A stretch of 20,308 bases of DNA from a virus, in the IMG/VR virus record IMGVR_UViG_3300031974_003624, positions 1 through 20,308 of that record; one strand, 5' to 3'. Both the position numbers and the translations under genes were made by a program. Each line of letters begins with the position of its first letter. Position 1 is the first letter of the stretch. Below the pieces are notes generated by a model that was given only the letters and a program-made list of their open reading frames with translations, did not search any database and was not told where the DNA came from. Shown here piece by piece: positions 1 through 17,373 of the stretch.

Positions 1-451
1 CCCGTTGATATAAATCTACAGTGTTGTTATTACCTTGTATTTCAATAAAGCCATCGTGCCCTGCTTTGCCCATTTGCGTATGATTGACTAGATTATTGTC
101 TCCGTTTATTATATTAGCTAAATGATGAGGAGCTCCGCCGCCGTCGGCTCTGTTGGTATCTGTTTGAGAGCTTAATAGATAATTACTATCTCCGGTTACT
201 GTCCAATATGCTTCATGACCACCTGTTTCGTCAACATCTATAGTTCCATCTGCATGTATACCTTGGTATATTATAATATCATTAACGTCTCCGGAGCCGG
301 TTAAAGAAACATAATTATCTTGGCTACGCTGTTGTATTTCTAAGCTTAAGTCGTCACTAATTTGTGAAATATAAATTTCATTTGCATTACCAATCTTCCC
401 GCTGATTAATAATGATACAGCTATCATTACCGACACCCACTGTATATCCAT
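1..451 (-). CDS. Curlin-repeat secreted protein, 3' end cut off by window edge
   Basis: The gene reads leftward and leaves the window before its stop codon. Translating 451 to 1 gives a hydrophobic signal peptide (about residues 1-23, ending GKIGNA) and a mature start NEIYISQ. That start is almost identical to the mature start of the other curlin-like gene at 1498-2238 (NEIYVNQ). Curlin-like repeats follow, with blocks such as GDSNYLL, GDNNLVNHTQMG and GNNNTVDLYQ that match the G-x-x-N and Q-x-G spacing of CsgA/CsgB repeats. I infer an amyloid subunit or nucleator exported through the CsgG pore encoded upstream. I chose the ATG at 451 because it gives a full signal peptide. An ATG at 427 is the alternative and would shorten the signal. 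Either way the gene overlaps the end of the FecR gene by 40-65 bases out of frame. CsgA-like and CsgB-like roles cannot be told apart. Confidence 0.72.
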   Translation of the reverse strand, partial: MDIQWVSVMIAVSLLISGKIGNANEIYISQISDDLSLEIQQRSQDNYVSLTGSGDVNDIIIYQGIHADGTIDVDETGGHEAYWTVTGDSNYLLSSQTDTNRADGGGAPHHLANIINGDNNLVNHTQMGKAGHDGFIEIQGNNNTVDLYQR

Positions 452-1532
452 AAATAGTCCAATCCTGCTGTGTTAAATCTAAAGTATAGCTAGTGTTTTT
501 ATCTAAAGTTAACTGAAAAACATTATTTGCTGAATTATCTTCTCGCCTAATAAAATATGAATTAGAAAACTCTTCATAAAAAATTCCTGTGTTTATATCT
601 AAACCTGTTGGCCGTTGTGTAAAAATAGTTTCATTTTGAATAGCAAGTTCGTCACGTAATGCATCTACTAATGCTTTGTTTAACATATCTAGCATGTCGT
701 ACATGACATCGGCAAATGTATAATCTGTTTCATCTAATTGAGTGTGCCAAATATCGTCAGTATTCAAATTATTTACATCTAATTCATCAAATTCTTCAAG
801 AAAATCAAATCCTAAAAAATCAAATAAATTTTTTGTTCTAACTCTAATTTCATCTTCAATTTCTTCGTAAGGAGATTTTTTACGTAAAATAATAAGCTGA
901 TTTATCATTCGTTCGTCTATATCAAGAATAAGAGGCTTAGACGGTGCTTGGCTACTTATTCTAGCCATTGTTGTCTGAAACGCTTGATTCATTACTACAA
1001 ATCCTGCGTCTGTTTCTACTGTTATTTCACCTGTGTAACAATCACCACTTACATCGCAGCTAGGCAATAAGGTTATCATACTTCCGCCTATTTCATCTAC
1101 TACCATGATAAAGTCTGTACCTCTAACTCCGATAGTAGCACTAGGGGTTCTAATTTTAACCTGCTGTCTATTATTTTTTGCTATTTGGCCACTAGCATAT
1201 CTGACTGTACCTAATGTTGCTTTTAAGCTTAATGCTCCTGTTCCTGCGTCAGGGTCATAAACAAAATCATCTATAAGTAATCTACTGTGTTCAGTAATAT
1301 CTACTCTTGTGTCATCTATAAAATCAATACGCATTTGCCCTCGAGCAGTCACAGCAGTATCCATGCTTTGAACAGTCACACCGGTAGTGCCGTCTATTAC
1401 GTCTCGGCCACGTTCTAGTACGCCACTACCTTTGATTTTTCCTATTTCGCCTGCATCTGCTAATGCTAAAGGAGCTAAAGCTAAACAACAAAATAGTTTA
1501 ATCAGTTTGTGTAATTGTAATTGTGCCATCAT
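387..1532 (-). CDS. Secreted FecR-domain protein within the curli cassette
   Basis: 381 residues with an N-terminal signal peptide (hydrophobic run FCCLALAPLALA, cleavage likely just before DAGE). Residues about 45-145 form a FecR-type domain: GTVRYASGQIA and then IRTPSATIGVRGTDF, the classic FecR core. The C-terminal 230 residues are acidic with no recognised fold. In bacteria many FecR domains are periplasmic scaffolds unrelated to iron, so an adaptor or assembly role for the curli fibre is plausible, but that is inference from position between two curlin genes. The reading frame could start at TTG 1538. ATG 1532 or 1529 is preferred. The start lies inside the end of the upstream curlin gene (35-base overlap), so its signal peptide is encoded by the same DNA as the last curlin repeat. 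Translation is probably coupled. Confidence 0.8.
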   Translation of the reverse strand: MMAQLQLHKLIKLFCCLALAPLALADAGEIGKIKGSGVLERGRDVIDGTTGVTVQSMDTAVTARGQMRIDFIDDTRVDITEHSRLLIDDFVYDPDAGTGALSLKATLGTVRYASGQIAKNNRQQVKIRTPSATIGVRGTDFIMVVDEIGGSMITLLPSCDVSGDCYTGEITVETDAGFVVMNQAFQTTMARISSQAPSKPLILDIDERMINQLIILRKKSPYEEIEDEIRVRTKNLFDFLGFDFLEEFDELDVNNLNTDDIWHTQLDETDYTFADVMYDMLDMLNKALVDALRDELAIQNETIFTQRPTGLDINTGIFYEEFSNSYFIRREDNSANNVFQLTLDKNTSYTLDLTQQDWTIYGYTVGVGNDSCIIINQREDW

Positions 1533-2238
1533 CTCCAACTAAAGTTAGATCTAAATCATTGTCGTATATGCCACTTTGAGTTACGATGATTGAATTGCCA
1601 CCGCCTGTTACATCTATGTTAACAGTATGTCCTGCGATGTCGCCGTCACCGTCAACATTAATAGCATATAAATTACCTCCTGCACTTGTGCTTAGTGATG
1701 CTGGAGATAATAAGCTAGAGCTAGTAGTGCTTAACGATGCACTACTGTCACTTGTGACAGTAACCGCAGCACTTTCGCCGTCGATTTCAGCATACACAGC
1801 ATCGCCGTCACCAGTTACTGTAAACGACACTGTTGCATTATCAGCTGAACTGGTTTCTCCTACATATATTACGTAGTCAGTATCGTCACCTGTGTTAGAT
1901 ATAGTCATAGTAGCTGAATCACACTCACCTGTTGCAGCACTACTACACAGTAAATCCAAAGTGTTGTTATCGCCGATAAATGACCAAGTACCTGTAAAAG
2001 TTATACCTTTGATTGTTGCATCTACAGTATTAAAATCACCAGTTTGTGTGAGTGTAATAGTTGTGTCGGTACCATTTAAGACTGCATCTGTAGTACTATT
2101 ACCAAACTCGTTGTCTTGACCAGTTTGTGTAATTGTTAACGTAAGACCGGCGCCTGCTTGATTTACATATATTTCATTTGCAAAAGCAACAGTTATTGCT
2201 GCTAAAGACGCTAAGCCTCCTATTATTAAAGCTTTCAT
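1498..2238 (-). CDS. Curlin-repeat secreted protein (CsgA/CsgB-like)
   Basis: 246 residues. The signal peptide ends VAFA and the mature protein begins NEIYVNQ. Imperfect curlin-type repeats follow: LTITQTGQDNEFGN, ITLTQTGDFNTVD, FIGDNNTLD, ISNTGDDTDY, IDVTGGGNSIIVTQSG and a final ITITQT. These show the alternating beta pattern with Q-x-G-x-x-N of curli subunits, which form extracellular amyloid. Repeats are more degenerate and more Thr/Asp-rich than in E. coli CsgA (about 150 residues), and a Ser-rich stretch splits the array near residues 165-185. A good Shine-Dalgarno (AGGGAG, six bases before the ATG) suggests strong translation. It follows csgG by 10 bases and overlaps the FecR gene downstream. 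The product is probably the main fibre subunit, or a phage-specific variant. There are two Cys in the middle, unusual for a curlin. Confidence 0.78.
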   Translation of the reverse strand: MKALIIGGLASLAAITVAFANEIYVNQAGAGLTLTITQTGQDNEFGNSTTDAVLNGTDTTITLTQTGDFNTVDATIKGITFTGTWSFIGDNNTLDLLCSSAATGECDSATMTISNTGDDTDYVIYVGETSSADNATVSFTVTGDGDAVYAEIDGESAAVTVTSDSSASLSTTSSSLLSPASLSTSAGGNLYAINVDGDGDIAGHTVNIDVTGGGNSIIVTQSGIYDNDLDLTLVGDDGTITITQTD

Positions 2239-2248
2239 TTGTATCTCC

Positions 2249-3073
2249 CTATGAATGATTATGAATTAAAATTTCTTCAGAAAATTTCCAAAGACCTTTA
2301 TCTTCCCCTGCAAGTATAAGCTCTACAATGCCTGCTTCAATTGCAGCTCTAACTGCATAATTGACAGGTTCATTTATAGACCATCCTACTTCGCTTTCTA
2401 TAATCTGTGTACCGAGATCTAGAAATTTAAAAATGTCGCCACCGCTTCTATAACTTGCTATTGTTTTTTCTGTTGCAACACTCACTAGAACTCTTCCGGT
2501 TTGTACACTTACTAAACGCATTGATACAGTAACTCTATCCATCCTATACTCGTCCTGTAGACCAAGTCCTAAATAGCGAGCGCCCATACCCCCGGTTGCT
2601 ATGTTACTATCATACCCGACTATTCCGCCTTCTAACAAAAGACCAGCAAACATTAATGGATCTAATGGTTCTGGCCCGCTTGGGCTAGATCGGTCGTATA
2701 CTTCTCTAGTATTTCTTATTAGTTGTCGTTCTTTAACTAAATTATCCATGCCTATACGCTCGACCACGTCAAACCAACTTCCATTCCCTACTTCCTGTAA
2801 AGCTTGTATTACCCAAACTTCTGCACCTTGAGTCACTGCTGAACTAAGATTGGCAAGTTTGTCACTAGGCTTTCTTTGTCCAGTTTTGTCTAAAAAACTG
2901 TACACACCAATTGCAATTTTTGGACCATCGATAGGAGGTATTGCGTCAAGATGAATTTGGTGACCTTGTACTTTCGGAGGACCAACTGACTCTTTTACAT
3001 CTTGCATCATATCATAACTTGCGCAACTAGCTAAAACTAAAAAGGATAAACTTATTAATAATTTTTTTATCAT
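2249..3073 (-). CDS. csgG: CsgG-like outer-membrane curli secretion pore (lipoprotein)
   Basis: 274 residues, very close to the 277 of E. coli CsgG. Residues 1-17 form a lipoprotein signal with lipobox L-A-S-C (lipidated Cys17). The body matches the CsgG family: IAIGVYSFLDKTGQ near residue 54, GAEVWVIQALQEVG and WFDVVERIGMDNLVKERQ, the LLLEGGIVGYDSN strand region, then RMDRVTVSMRLVSVQTGRVL and a C-terminal helix. CsgG forms a nonameric beta-barrel that passes unfolded curlins across the outer membrane. The start codon overlaps the csgF stop by one base (TAATG). Gene order csgF-csgG-curlin argues for a working secretion unit. No CsgE (periplasmic adaptor) or CsgC is present in the window. Family call is firm; activity in an infected cell is inferred. 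Confidence 0.93.
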   Translation of the reverse strand: MIKKLLISLSFLVLASCASYDMMQDVKESVGPPKVQGHQIHLDAIPPIDGPKIAIGVYSFLDKTGQRKPSDKLANLSSAVTQGAEVWVIQALQEVGNGSWFDVVERIGMDNLVKERQLIRNTREVYDRSSPSGPEPLDPLMFAGLLLEGGIVGYDSNIATGGMGARYLGLGLQDEYRMDRVTVSMRLVSVQTGRVLVSVATEKTIASYRSGGDIFKFLDLGTQIIESEVGWSINEPVNYAVRAAIEAGIVELILAGEDKGLWKFSEEILIHNHS

Positions 3074-3531
3074 TAGAAATTAAATTCTCCCGCTCCCGGT
3101 ATGCTGATTTCAGTATAACCGTCAGGACCATTTATTTCTAAAGTTATGGTACCTGTAAGTGTATCTTTGCTCCAAGTAATGGTGCTATCCTCAATTTCTG
3201 CTGAACCACTAGTAGCACAATTATCTGTACAATCAGCAAACATTGCATCTACCATTTGTTTACTAAGCGTTGCATAAATTCTTGATTCTAAATTTCTAAT
3301 AAATTTATTTAATACTGAATTTTCTAGTTCACGCTCTAATCTAGCTTCTTCTGCTTCGGCTTGTTTTCTAAGATCTTCTTGCGCATTAAACTTCAATTGC
3401 TCTGCACTAAGCACATGTGTACTATATCCATTGCCAAAATGAAATGCTGGGCTTTTGAAACCCCATACTAGATCAGCTTGTGCATGCGCTGCAACAATTG
3501 TGCAAAGCAAACTCCCTATCAAAACCCTCAT
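3073..3531 (-). CDS. csgF: CsgF-like curli assembly factor
   Basis: 152 residues with a signal peptide cut near HAQA-DLVW. The mature N-terminus (LVWGFKSPAFHFGNGYSTH, then LSAEQLKFNAQ) lines up with the CsgF segment that plugs the CsgG channel (TFQFRNPNFGG..., then LNSAQAQN). The middle contains a charged helix (about residues 50-80) and a short segment with two Cys (near residues 101 and 105). The C-terminus ends in strand repeats, ITWSKDTLTGTITLEI and YTEISIPG, like the CsgF C-terminal domain. E. coli CsgF is 138 residues. CsgF couples CsgG to the nucleator at the cell surface. It is the first gene of the cassette, with an SD AGGAGA six bases before the ATG and a TAAATA-type promoter box just upstream. 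Confidence 0.87.
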   Translation of the reverse strand: MRVLIGSLLCTIVAAHAQADLVWGFKSPAFHFGNGYSTHVLSAEQLKFNAQEDLRKQAEAEEARLERELENSVLNKFIRNLESRIYATLSKQMVDAMFADCTDNCATSGSAEIEDSTITWSKDTLTGTITLEINGPDGYTEISIPGAGEFNF

Positions 3532-4782: not shown

Positions 4783-5360
4783 TTTATGTCAGGCCAAAGA
4801 TGATTGAAAAAATAATCTTCGGCTTTATCTTTGCCAATATGTGCAGACAACATTTTTAGAGTCTGAGGATTTTTCCTTTGTCCGTCAATATAAGCTTGAT
4901 GTTTGTTGCTTACGTCTGTAGTTTTTAAATTAGGTAAGCCTTGCAGATATGATTTCAAAACAGGCACAACAGTCATTACTTCATTTAGATTTTTTGGTTT
5001 ACAGCACACAAAGTTTTCACTAAAAAAACCACTCCATTCAGGTCTAGGCCGAGGATCGCCTATTACTGGCAATTTAAAGACTCTTTCATCAACTGGAGTA
5101 AGATCAAAAAACATTCCGGTAAGAATGCCACTAATATTAATTACATCAAAGCCAAAGATCGGAGAAGTTGATTTTGCATGTGGCATAATAACCAAATGTA
5201 CAATTTCTACCTTATCAGTAGTGTAATATTCGTAGTGTGCCCATCTAAATTTTTCGTTAACGAACTTGCCATGCTCAAAACCAAAATCTTGAACAGGCAC
5301 AGAGTCGTTTGGGCTAAAATGAGATACCAGTTCATTCTTTAGGTTATTAAGTAAGATCAA
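4779..5360 (-). CDS. pcyX: Ferredoxin-dependent bilin reductase (PcyX-like)
   Basis: 193 residues from the chosen start. Family features: VHLVIMPHAKSTSPIFGFDVI (conserved Asp72 region), FFDLTPV (about 85-90), then RPRPEWSGFFSENFV and a Pro, the F-S-x-x-F block of the PcyA/PebA/PebS family. These enzymes reduce biliverdin using reduced ferredoxin. A viral branch called PcyX, found next to heme oxygenase on marine phage DNA and making phycoerythrobilin, fits length and context best; I recall this from the literature and could not check it here. Start choice: no ATG exists near the N-terminus. A TTG at 5360 is preceded by AGGAG ten bases away, inside the heme oxygenase end, giving a 14-base overlap. 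An upstream TTG at 5399 lacks such a site. Confidence 0.8.
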   Translation of the reverse strand: MILLNNLKNELVSHFSPNDSVPVQDFGFEHGKFVNEKFRWAHYEYYTTDKVEIVHLVIMPHAKSTSPIFGFDVINISGILTGMFFDLTPVDERVFKLPVIGDPRPRPEWSGFFSENFVCCKPKNLNEVMTVVPVLKSYLQGLPNLKTTDVSNKHQAYIDGQRKNPQTLKMLSAHIGKDKAEDYFFNHLWPDIK

Positions 5361-5889
5361 TGTGATCCATCTCCTGTAAAATATCAGCTGCAAAACCAAA
5401 TGCTATCGTAGCTTCAGGTGCCATACTATCGTCAAGTTTTTCTCTAAATTTATCTTTTAGGATTATAACATCTTGCTCAAATTCATAAAAACGAACAGGA
5501 AATTTATCTTTTAGATTTTTTGCAATAATTTGCCCGCCTGATAAATCTCCCATATGCCGAACATAACAATGAGCTAGTATTTTTTTAGGACTGCTAATGC
5601 TTTTAATATATTCAATATAATCTATAGAAGACTTTAATTTAAGTTCTTTTTTGCTTCCTATAGATAGCATATCTGAATAAATGAACCGAGTTCTGCATAT
5701 ATCTTCTATGCTGTCTAATACACCAAGTTCTGTTGCCTTAGTTTCTAAACAAGCATATACTAACCACATATTATATAGGTAACAGGCATACTCAGATGCA
5801 GTAAGATTGCCAGTTACAAGTTTTTTTGCAAATTTAGATTTTTCTGCTTTTTTATGTTGTTCTTTAGTGAGTTCTTTTAAATTATTCAT
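5347..5889 (-). CDS. ho1: Heme oxygenase (biliverdin-forming)
   Basis: 180 residues, all helical. The proximal heme ligand is probably His12 in LTKEQHKKAEKS. The family signature is complete at residues 104-120 (ILAHCYVRHMGDLSGGQ), where the Gly-rich distal helix lies over the heme. It opens heme to biliverdin IX-alpha, CO and iron using ferredoxin electrons, and so provides the substrate of the reductase encoded right after it. Cellular HO-1 enzymes are longer (about 230 residues); this is a compact version, as in phages. No clear Shine-Dalgarno precedes the ATG, which sits 7 bases after the Nfu stop, so it may rely on coupling to Nfu translation. Confidence 0.93.
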   Translation of the reverse strand: MNNLKELTKEQHKKAEKSKFAKKLVTGNLTASEYACYLYNMWLVYACLETKATELGVLDSIEDICRTRFIYSDMLSIGSKKELKLKSSIDYIEYIKSISSPKKILAHCYVRHMGDLSGGQIIAKNLKDKFPVRFYEFEQDVIILKDKFREKLDDSMAPEATIAFGFAADILQEMDHIDLT

Positions 5890-5896
5890 TGCTAAA

Positions 5897-6247
5897 TCAA
5901 TCAGAATTTATACTAGTATCGTCCTCATCTTCGTCGTCCCATGAATCCCAATCATAAAAATCCATTGATGAATAAAATGGATCAACAGTGCTCATAGGAT
6001 CGTCTTGAGCTTCTACAGTTTTAATTTCTGGAATATAGTGCATAAGCATGTTTTCAATGCCCATTTTTAAAGTCATTGTACTGCCTGCGCAGCCGCTACA
6101 CGCTCCGCCTAGTTCGAGTAATAGGTGCCCATCATTATAATCTAAAAATTCAATATTGCCGCCGTGCCCGGCAACAGCAGGTTTTACCCGTTCTTCTATG
6201 AGAAGTTTTATCTCCTCAACAATTGTTTCTGTTGTTCTTTCAGTCAT
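5897..6247 (-). CDS. Nfu/NifU C-terminal-type Fe-S scaffold
   Basis: 116 residues. Residues 5-75 are the Nfu domain: VKPAVAGHGGNIEFLDY and GGACSGCAGSTMTLKMGIE with the cluster-binding Cys50-x-x-Cys53. Nfu dimers hold a [4Fe-4S] cluster and pass it to target proteins. The C-terminal 30 residues are strongly acidic (WDSWDDEDEDD) with no match in the usual domain, a tail that may be phage-specific. It is first in the operon with heme oxygenase and bilin reductase. Both need reduced ferredoxin, so Fe-S supply for host ferredoxin is a reasonable inferred job. The ATG lies six bases after a perfect TATAAT with no Shine-Dalgarno, so the message is probably leaderless. Confidence 0.88.
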   Translation of the reverse strand: MTERTTETIVEEIKLLIEERVKPAVAGHGGNIEFLDYNDGHLLLELGGACSGCAGSTMTLKMGIENMLMHYIPEIKTVEAQDDPMSTVDPFYSSMDFYDWDSWDDEDEDDTSINSD

Positions 6248-9828: not shown

Positions 9829-10710
9829 CTACTTTTTGTTTAGTTTTTTTATTCTTTTATGCAATAATTTAAGTTGAGATATTGCCACTGGTCCTGCTTT
9901 AACAAAATCGTGTACCATTTGTATTATTGGCAAATAACTTTGAATAAAGTTTATTGGCGTTGCTTTGCCTTGTGCTGCATATTCTACAAATTTAGTAGCC
10001 CTTACAGCGTTTTCGTTACCTACAATTAATCTATAATAACTTACATCGCTAGGAGATTTTTCTAAATCTGGCTGGCTTATATCAATTTCTGTATCTTTAA
10101 CTGTAGGATCAATAAGTCTATTAGAACCAGCCCAAGTAGAGTAATAATCTATAATATCACTTGCTCTAAGCTTAGCCTGAGCTGCGTGTAATAATTGTGT
10201 AATTACTTCTTGTTTTTTTGAAATATGCAGTTTAGGAAAATTGCCTATGTCTCTTCTTAGAGTGCTATACTTTGACGTTTGTTGTCGTAGGCTATTCTGT
10301 ACTTGATAAAAGATGTTAAAACTCTGTATAGCAAATGAAGTAGGATTAGCTCTAACTTGTGTTAAATATCCATTAATGGTCATTATTGGCACTTGGGTAT
10401 TGCGTCGTATTTGTTTTGCACTGCCAGGATCTTTTAATTTATCCATTGCATCGTTGTCACCGCCTACAAAGTATAAAAAATTATAAAGATCGGTATTAGC
10501 CATTCTAAATTGTCTATAGCCGTCACCGCTTGTTGTTTTTCTTAGATAATCTTGCAAAAATAAATTATTGTTAGCGTCATATCGCATTACTTCAATCATA
10601 CACAATATCAAAAACATTTTTTCGCAGCAATCAGAATACGTTAATGATTTCTGATCAGACGAGTTTCGTGTCATCCTAGCTTCGTGAATTTCCTTAATAA
10701 ATTCCATCAT
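9829..10710 (-). CDS. Hypothetical virion-type protein with capsid-leader-like start
   Basis: 293 residues, mostly helical, function not recognised. It starts MMEFIKEIHEARMTR. The segment F-I-K-E-I-H-E-A is close to the T4 internal-protein leader (Q-E-F-I-A-E-A) and has an I-x-E cleavage site. The body has CCEKMFLILCMIEVMRYD and several Arg/Lys helices, ending in KLLHKRIKKLNKK. Its ATG overlaps the stop of the ligase-like gene (TAATG), so the two are coupled. It could be an internal head protein or structural protein. Confidence 0.65.
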   Translation of the reverse strand: MMEFIKEIHEARMTRNSSDQKSLTYSDCCEKMFLILCMIEVMRYDANNNLFLQDYLRKTTSGDGYRQFRMANTDLYNFLYFVGGDNDAMDKLKDPGSAKQIRRNTQVPIMTINGYLTQVRANPTSFAIQSFNIFYQVQNSLRQQTSKYSTLRRDIGNFPKLHISKKQEVITQLLHAAQAKLRASDIIDYYSTWAGSNRLIDPTVKDTEIDISQPDLEKSPSDVSYYRLIVGNENAVRATKFVEYAAQGKATPINFIQSYLPIIQMVHDFVKAGPVAISQLKLLHKRIKKLNKK

Positions 10711-11996
10711 TATAAACCACTTAACTTTTGAATACTAGATAACTCTTCATTTACTTTATTTTTTTCGTAACAGTTGCAATGCTTGCAGTCTGGACCGCAC
10801 TTACATTTACTTACTGGTTGTCCGCAACATGCCTCTGGGCACATTTCTTCTTTTGATTCTCTTTGCACTGCTCTATTAGCAGCAGTAAAGCCTGATCTAT
10901 CTACAAGTTTAATTGCGCCTTCGGAATGGTCTAACACATATCCTTCACCACCTTTTGAGCCAGCAGTAGTTGCTTTAATAGCGCTATCGTGCGAATCAAA
11001 CTGTTTTATTATATCATTTTTTATTTGCATTATACTAGCAACAATTTGCCACATGCCATTAAAACCATTTATATGCGTATTTAGATATTCTTGTATCCGT
11101 GCTTGTTTAGCAGGCGAAACCTTACTAGTGGCTAGCCATTGCATAAAGTCTGCACCGAGATTAGTTAACCCTGTGTCTACTTTTTTATTTAAATATGTAT
11201 AGAAAATCATAGGCAAATCCTTCATTTTAAGCCTTGTAATTCTCTCTACGTTCAACATATCATCTATCTGTGCACCATATTTTTGCACAAGATTATTAGC
11301 CTCCCTAGCATGCGAGTCATTTACATTAGGTGCACGTTCGACAGTAACTGGCGGAAAGTATAGTACTTCGCCTGAATTCATCTGATTTAAAATAGTGTTA
11401 TCAACTGCTGTATCTTTACCATCTGGGGTCATAAATCTATGAACCACTACTCCACTTGTACTAGCACCAATTTGCTGACCTATTTCACTTTCTGCATCTA
11501 CTTCATACGTAACAATGTTAGGTGTAAATACGTAATTTCCATTTTCATTTGTTGGTGTATCAAAGTATAACAAATCACCTTTTAAATAGCCTATTACATG
11601 CTTAGGAAAACTTCTTTGGTAAAGATCGTACAGCGCACTCATTTTTCCTGCAAACACTTTTTGAGATTCAGGATTGTTTGGATTTCTTTTACTAAACATT
11701 TTGTTTACAGCAGCCGCTGACGTAGGACGACCGTCGTAGCCTTTTGCGCCAAATCCGCTTTTATCTGTTAAAACAAACTTGCCTTCTTCGTTTCTTCCAA
11801 ATATGATAGCAGGAGAGCCGTCCCATTTAATTGTCACATCTTGATGCCTGCCTTCTTCTAAACTTTTTAGTGCTTCAACTGCTCTACGAGCGCCAGCTGC
11901 ACCTTCCCAAAACACAAGGTCTTCTGCGTGCTGTATACGAGCTTCGGCACCTTCAGTAATTATTTGTTTATTTTCAAAAAGCTCTTGTACTTTCAT
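10710..11996 (-). CDS. Ligase-fold nucleotidyltransferase-like protein with Cys-rich tail
   Basis: 428 residues. IKWDGSPAIIFGR contains the K57-x-D-G motif I of covalent nucleotidyltransferases (DNA/RNA ligases, capping enzymes), where Lys takes AMP or GMP. EGYV (from Glu351) and AIKL (Lys363) fit motifs IV and V. The middle part (about 90-340) is unlike standard ligases. The tail carries eight Cys in 24 residues (386, 390, 391, 398, 400, 404, 407, 409), likely a metal-binding knot. The start MKVQELFENKQIITEG has two L/I-x-E sites, so I infer packaging in the head. It is next to a nucleotidyltransferase gene, suggesting nucleic acid end repair or modification on entry. It may belong to the phage DUF6267 group, from memory. 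Activity is unproven. Confidence 0.7.
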   Translation of the reverse strand: MKVQELFENKQIITEGAEARIQHAEDLVFWEGAAGARRAVEALKSLEEGRHQDVTIKWDGSPAIIFGRNEEGKFVLTDKSGFGAKGYDGRPTSAAAVNKMFSKRNPNNPESQKVFAGKMSALYDLYQRSFPKHVIGYLKGDLLYFDTPTNENGNYVFTPNIVTYEVDAESEIGQQIGASTSGVVVHRFMTPDGKDTAVDNTILNQMNSGEVLYFPPVTVERAPNVNDSHAREANNLVQKYGAQIDDMLNVERITRLKMKDLPMIFYTYLNKKVDTGLTNLGADFMQWLATSKVSPAKQARIQEYLNTHINGFNGMWQIVASIMQIKNDIIKQFDSHDSAIKATTAGSKGGEGYVLDHSEGAIKLVDRSGFTAANRAVQRESKEEMCPEACCGQPVSKCKCGPDCKHCNCYEKNKVNEELSSIQKLSGL

Positions 11997-12015
11997 TAAT
12001 CTCTACTCTTTATAG

Positions 12016-12768
12016 TTAATATGCGTAGTTTTGTATTCCTGCTAGATCTTTGAGTCTAGTAATGTCAGCACTTTCGGGAAGTTGCTTACCACGTTTTTCA
12101 AATGCTGCTCTAGCATCAGCAGTTAGTTCTTGATAATCAACACGGCTTCGAAGTGCGGTAAGAATAGTTTCTACGCTTTCTAAATCGTCTGGCTGAGCAT
12201 TAGGTCCGATTAAATGCTGGGCTATTTCTTGTGGGTTACGAGTAATAACTTGATTACTCATGCGATCAATAAGGCCCTGCTGTGGGCTCCATTTATAGGC
12301 TTGCGCTGTTGCAATACTGCTCATCAGTATTTGTCTTTCTGCACCTGAGTAAGCAGTTGCATCATTAGACCCAGCCATACTCCATTTCATCCATTCGGGA
12401 TCACCAAACATCAAATCTGTTTGAACATATCCATTTCCTTCGTCTCCATTTATAGGAGTAAGAAAGTGAACACTTATGCCTGTCTTGCGTATCCATGTTT
12501 TAGGGTCATGACCATTTTGTTCACACCAAGCTGCAAGTTTTTGCACAAGTTCATCTTTGGTTACTTCTTGTTGATTTACAGCTACATCTAGATCACCACT
12601 TGTTTCTTTACGCCCTGTAGATCCTAACATAAAATCTTCATGCGGTAAATTTGTTATTTTTTCTAACCAGCGTAGGGTAGGCACTACGTCTTTTTGGTCA
12701 ATTCGGCGTGTAATTATATTGCCATCTGGATCTTTAAATATGTTGCCGCCTTCAAGTAGTAGGGCCAT
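12016..12768 (-). CDS. Pol-beta-superfamily nucleotidyltransferase
   Basis: 250 residues. The catalytic motif is visible: LGSTGRKETSGDLDVAV, with Gly49-Ser50 and Asp59-x-Asp61, the G-S-x(n)-D-x-D signature of minimal nucleotidyltransferases. A third acidic residue is probably the Asp in YVQTDLMFGDP. Such enzymes add nucleotides to RNA, DNA, proteins or small molecules. The N-terminus MALLLEGGNIF has an L-x-E site at residues 4-6, so it may be cleaved and packaged. SD GAGGAAAG lies just before the ATG. It is followed after 19 bases by the ligase-like gene. Substrate unknown. Confidence 0.75.
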   Translation of the reverse strand: MALLLEGGNIFKDPDGNIITRRIDQKDVVPTLRWLEKITNLPHEDFMLGSTGRKETSGDLDVAVNQQEVTKDELVQKLAAWCEQNGHDPKTWIRKTGISVHFLTPINGDEGNGYVQTDLMFGDPEWMKWSMAGSNDATAYSGAERQILMSSIATAQAYKWSPQQGLIDRMSNQVITRNPQEIAQHLIGPNAQPDDLESVETILTALRSRVDYQELTADARAAFEKRGKQLPESADITRLKDLAGIQNYAY

Positions 12769-15100: not shown

Positions 15101-15129
15101 ATTATATAACTATAATATTAATTAGTCAA
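15101..15129 (-). promoter_or_regulatory. Sigma70-type promoter of the HNH gene
   Basis: Minus strand TTGACT at 15129-15124, 17-base spacer, TATAAT at 15106-15101. It overlaps the stop codon of the upstream lysozyme gene and gives a leader of about 20 bases. Confidence 0.8.
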
Positions 15130-15838
15130 TTAACTTTGTATAGGCATCATAAAATTCTCTAGCATAAGCCTTGCGTTTTTCGCGGTGCTCTCCTGAACTT
15201 TGTTCGTACCATTTGTCTACAAGTTCTGCAGCTTGTTCAGGCGTAGTTGCTTTGATTATTTTTTTCCATTGATGTGCATAACCTGTTGCAGGATGACCGT
15301 CGGTGCCTTTATGATCATATTTTCTAGTAGACAATTCTATTATGATAAATTCCAATTGTTGTTCAAAATTAGGCTGACTTCCATCTGACTTCCATTCTAA
15401 TCCAGACATAGTTTCCCAGTTTTTCCTTCTTGGAGCTCGCCACTGAGCTATGCCAAAAGCTTTGCCCTGGTCACCTACTGCTGCTGGATTGAATGTAGTT
15501 GATTCAGCTTTAAGATTGCCTACAAAACCTGCTGCTATTATTGCGGATAATTCGTCTGATAATCCTTGGTTTTTTCCAAATGTAACAAAAGCATCCATGA
15601 GATATTTTACAGTTTGATTTAGCGATGGTTTAGGATCTGTTGTCGATGCTGCTGTAGGCTGGCTGCTTGGAGCACTTACGAATAGTTTTTGGCCCATTTG
15701 GATCACGTCGCTTGAAAGATTATTCCATTTTTTTAAGTCGTCTACAGTAACGCCATATGTTTGACTAATACGCCACAAATTATCGCCTTGTGATACTTTG
15801 TGAGTTTTTTGTTCCAAAAGAATTTCATTTATTTTCAT
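15122..15838 (-). CDS. LysM - phage tail lysozyme protein with capsid-leader-like start
   Basis: 238 residues. Residues 1-10 (MKINEILLEQ) are the shared leader with an L-x-E site. Residues about 12-54 are a LysM peptidoglycan-binding domain (HKVSQGDNLWRISQTYGVTVDDLKK pattern). After a Ser/Thr/Pro linker, residues 75-235 look like the phage tail lysozyme family (IIAAGFVGNLKAES, FGIAQWRAPRR), with Glu in NLKAES the likely catalytic residue. It cleaves cell-wall glycan. If the leader works as I think, it is carried in the virion and helps entry. It could instead be a tail or lysis enzyme. Overlaps the upstream gene's stop by one base (TAATG). Confidence 0.83.
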   Translation of the reverse strand: MKINEILLEQKTHKVSQGDNLWRISQTYGVTVDDLKKWNNLSSDVIQMGQKLFVSAPSSQPTAASTTDPKPSLNQTVKYLMDAFVTFGKNQGLSDELSAIIAAGFVGNLKAESTTFNPAAVGDQGKAFGIAQWRAPRRKNWETMSGLEWKSDGSQPNFEQQLEFIIIELSTRKYDHKGTDGHPATGYAHQWKKIIKATTPEQAAELVDKWYEQSSGEHREKRKAYAREFYDAYTKLID

Positions 15839-16545
15839 TATCTGCCTCTTCTTCCAATAAGTCTTAAAAGTCTGTTTAGGACATTAGCATCTTGTTTACC
15901 GTTTGGTATTTTTTCAAACATGCCGGACGGATTTAGGAATTCTTTTCTATTAGGATACAGTCTTACATCATAACCTAATTTGCCAGCAAAGTTTGCTACC
16001 TTTTCCATAGTTACTATATCATCATTTGCATATGAACGTACTATCTCCATACGTTTTTTATAGTTCTCAACATCTAAAGGCGTGCCATCTGGATTTGTCT
16101 CTGGCATTATACCTTGGTCAAATTGTGCTAATTTTATAATTTCCGGAGGAGGCACTATCCGTATATTGTTTGTAAAACGTTTCACACTGCCAACTGGTGC
16201 TGTTCCCGGCAAGTCTAACCTAACTTCAAGTTCGTCTGCGTGTATTTCTGAAAACTGATAATCTTCAAGAGTCCAGCCAGGACGATTTGCTAATGCCTTT
16301 TTGAGCGTCCGTACGTCAACTTCAAATGTTACGTTTAAGTTGATATCAAAAGATTCATTATACCAATTTTGCGAAGAACTGCTGAAACTTATATAACTGT
16401 CTTTAGCTATAGCTTGCCCAAAATCAGTTGTGTTAACTTCCAGTGCGTCATTCTTAAGAATTTTAAGCGCTTTATCATAGGTAGTAGAATGATACAACAT
16501 ACGATAGTCAGCTGCATTTTCTAATAAAATTTCTTTTATTATCAT
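15838..16545 (-). CDS. ADP-ribosyltransferase-like protein with capsid-leader-like start
   Basis: 235 residues. After the leader MIIKEILLEN comes MLYHSTTYDKALKILKN (His19), resembling the Y-H-x-T strand of ADP-ribosyltransferase-fold enzymes. ISFSSSSQNW (about 52-61) fits the S-F-S motif, and ADELEVRL (Glu105, Glu107) the E-x-E site. Together these give a possible H-S-E type triad. The C-terminal half (about 130-235) is unknown and ends with basic RLIGRRGR. T4 packages the ADP-ribosyltransferase Alt in its head through the same kind of leader, so this could be a functional analogue. The fold call is from short motifs only. Confidence 0.55.
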   Translation of the reverse strand: MIIKEILLENAADYRMLYHSTTYDKALKILKNDALEVNTTDFGQAIAKDSYISFSSSSQNWYNESFDINLNVTFEVDVRTLKKALANRPGWTLEDYQFSEIHADELEVRLDLPGTAPVGSVKRFTNNIRIVPPPEIIKLAQFDQGIMPETNPDGTPLDVENYKKRMEIVRSYANDDIVTMEKVANFAGKLGYDVRLYPNRKEFLNPSGMFEKIPNGKQDANVLNRLLRLIGRRGR

Positions 16546-16563
16546 TTTTATTAACCTATATCA

Positions 16564-17373
16564 CTAAGCATTAGTCATTCCAGATTTAAATAAAGCAGCT
16601 TCTCTTTTTCTTCTTTTTACAAGACCAGGCAGTGGAACTTTAACTAGCTTTCCGTCTGGGCCTTTTTTAGTAACGTTGCGATACAACAGCATTTTAGCTG
16701 CGATAGTTTCGTCATCTCTTGTACCGTTAGCAGTAAGTTGATTAATATTACCTATGTTGTAAGTAAAGCTCATAAGTGCCGCTATCTGATCGTCATTCCA
16801 GTTGTAGTTGCCTTGACGTTGTACACGAGTTACGTGTTCAAACGCAGTCTGTAATTCACTGCGCAATCTGCGCTCTGCTTCTGCTCGGTCTATAACTTCG
16901 TTAGGACCTGTTGCTTTTGATCCGTACCCAATTGAATATTGTTTGTAATCTGGATAAGCATTTGGCTTGTAGCCTTCGAGCTTTTTTACCAAAGTAGTTG
17001 CTTGTTCCATTGCTGTGCCAGATAATTTAGGCACGCTGGTTTTTCTAGGAGGTATATCTAAATTTAAATTTAATGTAGGGTCACCTAAAAATCCTACGTT
17101 CTTAGACTGGAGTCCAAGTGGCTTACGTATATTAAGTGCTTTCATTGTTTCAGGACCCACTACTCCATCAACTTTAATACCTTTGTCTTTTTGATATTTG
17201 CGTACTGCTGCTTCTGTGCGTGGACCATACTTCCCGTCAATGCCAGTAGGTCCTATATCATAGCCTGAATTAACTAGATTGGTTTGAATTTGCTTAACTA
17301 AACCATATAGAGCCGGAGGATAAGTTCCAGTATTTTTTATTACCTGTTCATTTAATAGTTCAGCTACTCTCAT
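16564..17373 (-). CDS. PG-binding domain + GH24 lysozyme with capsid-leader-like start
   Basis: 269 residues. Leader MRVAELLNEQ; a peptidoglycan-binding type 1 domain at about 20-80 (GIDGKYGPRTEAAVRKYQK, VDGVVGPETMKAL); then a T4-type GH24 lysozyme at about 120-265. Catalytic residues fit Glu133, Asp142 and Ser147 (in place of T4 Thr26): LEGYKPNAYPD then YSIGYG. Later FTYNIGNINQL matches the T4 helix region. It cuts peptidoglycan during entry or lysis. The leader favours virion carriage, as with its neighbour, but the main endolysin role cannot be ruled out. Its start overlaps the stop of the basic protein gene (ATGA). Confidence 0.9.
   Translation of the reverse strand: MRVAELLNEQVIKNTGTYPPALYGLVKQIQTNLVNSGYDIGPTGIDGKYGPRTEAAVRKYQKDKGIKVDGVVGPETMKALNIRKPLGLQSKNVGFLGDPTLNLNLDIPPRKTSVPKLSGTAMEQATTLVKKLEGYKPNAYPDYKQYSIGYGSKATGPNEVIDRAEAERRLRSELQTAFEHVTRVQRQGNYNWNDDQIAALMSFTYNIGNINQLTANGTRDDETIAAKMLLYRNVTKKGPDGKLVKVPLPGLVKRRKREAALFKSGMTNA

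Follow-up and report, generated by a model that had tools for sequence, protein, structure and literature searches.

A KxDG ligase-like protein and a Pol X-like nucleotidyltransferase as a candidate head-packaged end-repair pair of T4-like phages

The locus and its two central proteins

The window, the whole stretch of DNA analysed here, is a virus record of 20,308 bases from IMG/VR. Two adjoining minus-strand genes stand at its centre, P0001 and P0002, and both reading frames lie where the first-pass annotation had placed them (Table 1). They are flanked by two partners. P0004 matches the virion structural protein family phrog_11854 (E 2.4e-12), and its relatives are found upstream of the nucleotidyltransferase in most loci, jumbo phages included. 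Relatives of P0003 follow the pair in most loci and follow the nucleotidyltransferase in two jumbo phages. Searches of known families and of the PDB returned no match for P0003; F4 and E10 of its leader are invariant, and the cleavage-like site is comparable to those of P0001 and P0002.

Table 1. Positions of genes, motifs and leaders in the window (arrows mark predicted cleavage points).
Feature	Position	Strand	Basis
P0003, conserved downstream partner, leader FIKEIHE↓AR	9829..10710	(-)	locus comparison
P0001, DUF6267 protein with putative KxDG ligase-like adenylyltransferase domain, 428 aa	10710..11996	(-)	PF19782, invariant motifs, AF2 model
Eight-Cys module CPEACCGQPVSKCKCGPDCKHCNCY, insert in C-terminal tail of P0001, residues 386-410	10767..10841	(-)	pLDDT <50
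P0001 motif V, K363-L-V-x-R	10896..10910	(-)	conservation; 12 residues after motif IV
P0001 motif IV, E351-G-Y-V	10935..10946	(-)	conservation; top hhalign match to jumbo-phage KxDG proteins
P0001 motif I, K57-W-D59-G60, predicted nucleotidylated lysine	11817..11828	(-)	invariant; aligned by hhalign with KxDG of jumbo-phage ligases
P0001 leader MKVQELFENKQIITE, ending in T4-protease-like site ITE↓G	11952..11996	(-)	E15 invariant in alignment of P0001 homologues
P0002, Pol X-like nucleotidyltransferase, palm and thumb only, 250 aa	12016..12768	(-)	AF2, Foldseek, hhalign
P0002 third predicted catalytic aspartate, D118	12415..12417	(-)	invariant; hhalign alignment to Pol X runs through D118
P0002 predicted catalytic motif, G49-S-T-G...S-G-D59-L-D61	12586..12624	(-)	G49, S57, G58, D59, D61 invariant
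P0002 leader MALLLE↓GG, very short	12751..12768	(-)	E6, G7, G8 invariant
P0004, upstream partner, 87 aa	12752..13015	(-)	phrog_11854 match

Elsewhere on the minus strand, the curli-type genes CsgG (E 1.4e-46) and CsgF (E 5.3e-11) occupy window positions 387-3531 and enclose genes for an unclassified repeat-like protein and for a protein with a FecR domain. Curli pore genes have previously been described in pelagimyophages and in methylophage Melnitz (PMC9004378). At 5347-6247, also on the minus strand, a heme oxygenase gene (E 5.2e-24) adjoins a NifU-like gene (E 4.8e-25).

P0001 belongs to Pfam family DUF6267 (PF19782; E 1.6e-35, 123.6 bits against a cut-off of 27, residues 21-378), which is present in at least 116 phage records, many of them from cyanophages. 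Across 33 dereplicated homologues, K57, D59, G60, P62, G67 and K79 are invariant and E351, G352, K363 and R367 are conserved at 0.97, the shortfall stemming from one truncated contig. The order and spacing of these motifs match those of KxDG ligases: motifs IV and V lie 12 residues apart in P0001 and 13 in T4 Rnl1, which, as read from the T4 genome, carries K99-E-D-G-S, E227-G-Y-V and the motif V lysine. At the place of motif III, P0001 reads KGDLLY and has an aspartate (Asp141) where ligases usually have a glutamate, a feature that counts against a role in end repair. In most homologues, and in P0001 if its tail is set aside, the chain stops about 14 residues past motif V, with no OB-fold domain or motif VI. 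DNA ligases need both, which argues against P0001 being a standard DNA ligase.

The AF2 model of P0001 (pLDDT 81) has a confident core. The best solved fold found for it by Foldseek is the adenylyltransferase domain of a fungal tRNA ligase (E 0.057, TM at most 0.2), and 12 of the 50 best matches are ligases; tRNA-ligase adenylyltransferase domains rank highest, with DNA ligases, including DNA ligases III and I and the ASFV ligase, lower. Given an E value of 0.057 at best, which taken alone is not significant, and the low TM-scores, a ligase-type adenylyltransferase fold is suggestive rather than proven. Matches in BFVD include DUF6267 proteins, annotated cytidyltransferases and RNA ligases of several phages. 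One of these, an Atu_ph07 entry labelled as an RNA ligase, has 324 aa and so equals in length the product of the Atu_ph07 gene that precedes the nucleotidyltransferase; an S-PM2 entry annotated as a cytidyltransferase matches the P0001 model along the greater part of its length. The RNA ligase family RNA_lig_T4_1 (PF09511) gave a weak, sub-threshold match (E 0.0057, 17 bits where the cut-off is 28.3), and profile hhalign found no link of P0001 or DUF6267 to T4 Rnl1 or Rnl2, with scores at chance level. The non-significant fold match and the missing profile link both weigh against the end-repair reading. In single-sequence searches of the PDB and Pfam with P0001 and P0002, DUF6267 alone exceeded its cut-off. 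Single-sequence hhalign comparisons with T4 Rnl1, Rnl2, gp30 and a Pol lambda stretch were uninformative and gave way to profile alignments.

P0002 had no significant match in Pfam, PHROGs or NCBIfam. Its motif LGSTGRKETSGD59LD61VAV supplies two of three aspartates (D59, D61 and D118) that are invariant among 23-27 homologues. Lys57 of P0001 and Asp59 and Asp61 of P0002, the residues singled out by the first-pass annotation, are therefore conserved throughout the homologues aligned. The AF2 model of P0002 has a pLDDT of 89.6. Foldseek returned 90 PDB matches below 1e-3, the best 50 of which are all family X DNA polymerases (Pol lambda, mu, beta and TdT; E about 1e-4). Against a Pol X profile built from phage, bacterial and archaeal Pol X sequences and one Pol lambda stretch, the P0002 profile scored 37.2 in hhalign, compared with a maximum of 25.4 in 150 column shuffles of trimmed alignments (two shuffle controls with an untrimmed alignment scored above 130). 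The alignment spans 137 columns: it starts at the GDLD motif, passes the third aspartate and runs on into the thumb. P0002 shares the three-Asp palm and the thumb with Pol lambda, mu, beta, TdT and bacterial PolX. Unlike these, it has about 25 residues before the palm, which in the model begins near residue 25, and lacks the 8-kDa and fingers domains. Together with chance-level scores against RlaP, the fold and the profile match indicate that P0002 is a minimal Pol X-like protein consisting of palm and thumb only. The RlaP assignment itself was rejected: PF10127 does not match the P0002 homologues, and the hhalign score of 16.5 against RlaP proteins equals chance. Atu_ph07 encodes its RlaP at a different place in its genome from its P0002 homologue. 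The adjoining of two nucleic-acid-type folds, proposed at the outset, thus holds in the form of a modelled Pol X fold beside a protein with KxDG ligase motifs and a suggestive fold.

Relatives of P0002 are encoded in at least 272 stretches of viral DNA in an IMG/VR scan; none was found in bacterial and archaeal genomes. Phosso carries a second P0002-like nucleotidyltransferase (L118, 5240-6133), which is remote from the first and lies among small genes, with a tRNA nearby.

Gene pairing and N-terminal leaders

The locus set was drawn from 80 stretches kept among those containing P0002 relatives, 22 loci collected for P0001 and two added jumbo-phage loci. Across 93 loci, a redundant set that holds 46 distinct nucleotidyltransferase sequences, a DUF6267 gene adjoins the P0002 relative in 88, with at most 30 bp between the genes in 84; the co-occurrence in T4-like genomes expected from the first reading is borne out. 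The five loci without a called DUF6267 gene are three on contigs that end within 1 kb and those of Phosso and Atu_ph07. In each of Phosso, Atu_ph07 and PA5oct, the nucleotidyltransferase is preceded by a KxDG protein whose divergence places it beyond a DUF6267 call by Pfam. These jumbo-phage proteins carry KLDGS or KIDG, EGVV or EGYV, and a KIVDK-like motif V, and the two best hhalign matches of the DUF6267 profile to the three proteins fall on motifs IV-V and on motif I. In one locus (L086, 4480-6675), nucleotidyltransferase and DUF6267 are fused in a single frame of 732 aa, with an INE↓G site directly before the ligase domain. The cassette adjoins primase and helicase genes in jumbo phages and cyanophages.

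The partner is not the same everywhere. In the cyanophages P-TIM40, S-RIM32, syn9 and S-SZBM1, and in locus L022, an NMNAT-like cytidyltransferase adjoins DUF6267, and a search of the P-TIM40, S-RIM32 and syn9 genomes with the P0002 profile found no relative. Either the ligase-like protein can have more than one kind of nucleotidyl transferase as its partner, or the two are less closely associated than the main set implies; the swap counts against reading the two proteins as an end-repair pair. In a cyanophage (L002, 3154-3930), a vibriophage (L005, 3994-4890) and PA5oct (L106, 6638-7654), proteins encoded next to the ligase-like gene resemble PD-(D/E)xK nucleases by eye; they have no significant Pfam match.

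Both proteins open with leaders of the kind seen in phage head proteins. Of 60 distinct DUF6267 sequences, 52 have a [LIVMF]xE[AGS] site at the domain boundary, preceded by leaders of very different lengths, and LxE↓GG is present in 44 of the 46 distinct nucleotidyltransferases. Exceptions include leaderless cyanophage, vibriophage and jumbo-phage versions. Those of jumbo phages and cyanophages begin at about the expected cleavage point, as in a jumbo-phage P0002 homologue that starts M-GGAAF. The packaging leaders reported in the first-pass annotation are supported as a pattern across the homologues, with the correction that P0002 of the window has a very short leader. About ten minus-strand genes of the window open with similar leaders. 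Among their products are a LysM/tail-lysozyme protein (15122-15838), a peptidoglycan-binding/lysozyme protein (16564-17373) and a protein (15838-16545) in which the leader MIIKEILLE is followed by motifs that look ADP-ribosyltransferase-like by eye (YHSTTYDKA, SFSSSSQ, DELEVRL); this last protein has no family match.

T4 internal proteins are packaged via such leaders, known as capsid targeting sequences (PMC9026906), and T4 and giant-phage head proteases cleave after glutamate (PMC5694885). P0001 and P0002 share with the T4 internal head proteins and Alt a short leader at the N terminus that closes with a head-protease-like xE↓ site; their own cleavage and packaging are predicted from the leader sequence. 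A contig of 110 kb (L088) encodes a gp21-type protease together with gp23, which by inspection contains KYLAE↓AAS at the matching place, the same LAE↓A pattern. A distant P0002 homologue, PA5oct gp253 (profile E 5.5e-16), is annotated as a structural protein by ESI-MS/MS and is the only homologue annotated as MS-detected; the annotation of the PA5oct ligase-like protein gp256 lacks such a mark, which counts against the end-repair pair. The Atu_ph07 cassette (gp64-gp68) lies inside a cluster, CDS 31-76, that includes 29 virion proteins detected by MS (PMC6102473). NMNAT-like proteins have been detected in the virion proteomes of several cyanophages, with possible carry-over noted by the authors (PMC10665884, PMC9602691). 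We infer from the leaders that P0001 and P0002 are apparently both loaded into the virus head for delivery to the host.

End repair and alternative roles

By analogy, the closest known kind for P0001 and P0002 is the RlaP and Rnl1/Rnl2 RNA-repair pairs of jumbo phages, for which the proposed logic is that nucleotides are restored before ligation (PMC7824862). These systems likewise pair a KxDG ligase with a nucleotidyltransferase of the Pol-beta superfamily. In contrast to them, P0002 falls outside RlaP (PF10127) and P0001 outside Rnl1 and Rnl2 by profile, so that the pair is a member of neither family, and its leaders suggest virion packaging.

We propose that P0001 and P0002 form a nucleic-acid end-repair pair that is packaged in the head via short, protease-cleaved leaders and delivered with the DNA, a reading to which we give an even chance. 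The leaders would place both proteins in the phage head, where a head-type protease would remove them, and the pair would enter the host together with the viral DNA. P0002 could then supply the nucleotides that a damaged 3' end or a gap has lost, after which P0001, its Lys57 charged with a nucleotide, would seal the end. The likelier substrate would be RNA, for example tRNA cut by host anticodon nucleases, with DNA as the alternative; the missing OB domain and the tRNA-ligase resemblance of P0001 favour RNA, and DNA stays a candidate in view of P0002's Pol X fold and of the primase and helicase genes close by. Between the DNA end-sealing and the tRNA modification or repair originally envisaged, RNA repair fits somewhat better.

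If the substrate were DNA, the Pol X-like enzyme would fill gaps and the ligase would seal nicks or ends of the injected genome, much as the minimal Pol X and ligase encoded by ASFV serve genome repair (PMC5330486, PMC6344480). That comparison is a functional analogy only, drawn from an unrelated virus whose ligase is a DNA ligase. The exclusively Pol X character of the 50 best P0002 folds, the DNA ligases among the folds matched by P0001 and the replication genes beside the cassette in jumbo phages and cyanophages speak for repair of DNA; we nevertheless consider it unlikely, as P0001 stops shortly after motif V with neither OB domain nor motif VI, and several of these phages already encode a separate DNA ligase of the usual type. 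A quite improbable alternative is that one or both proteins modify the host rather than repair nucleic acids, acting like T4 Alt by attaching nucleotides to proteins or tRNAs of the host during entry. It would account for the leaders on both proteins and is in keeping with the ADP-ribosyltransferase-like appearance of a neighbouring leader protein and with the NMNAT-like partner of DUF6267 in cyanophages, but the conserved pairing of ligase motifs with a polymerase fold is more easily explained by a shared nucleic-acid substrate.

The two genes might also be mere neighbours, leader-bearing head proteins that cluster in one island while each acts alone. The number of similar leaders in the window and the exchange of partner in cyanophages would suit this view, which we regard as the least probable of all, given that gene order is conserved with short gaps in 84 loci, that leaderless jumbo phages keep the pairing and that a fusion exists.

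The end-repair pair could extend to a more general statement, which we put forward tentatively and with less than even confidence: marine T4-like virions may contain all that is needed to heal and seal ends, in the form of a Pol X-like polymerase and a ligase of a new family. This machine would act in the first minutes of infection, ahead of phage gene expression, for instance by undoing tRNA cleavage by host defence. If true, this would provide a function for DUF6267 and for an unnamed nucleotidyltransferase family, and would mean that phages inject repair enzymes and do not merely make them after infection. From end repair of this kind follows a prediction on how immunity that targets translation is escaped in abundant marine bacteria.

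The eight-Cys module

The eight-Cys tail that the first-pass annotation had joined to the ligase-like protein is indeed present, but its suggested part in the enzyme mechanism was rejected, since the stretch is a mobile insert confined to one lineage and modelled with low confidence. Within the collected DUF6267 proteins it occurs only in the window and in the close relatives L008, L009 and L010; its other carriers are unrelated phage proteins. It looks like a mobile module of putative metal-binding type and poses a second question, separate from that of the enzyme pair. The exact pattern was absent from a collection of bacterial and archaeal genomes. Protease-like sites flank the module in 60% and 72% of cases, compared with about 28% in random windows of the same proteins; both flanking sites are found in only 36 of 83 contexts, and we therefore make no claim that the module is excised. 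These 83 distinct phage protein contexts of the pattern MCPxACCGxPVTECxCGPDCKHCDCY comprise small proteins, internal positions and tails; at the DNA level, a pattern for the module is present in 73 viral stretches and a looser one in at least 120.
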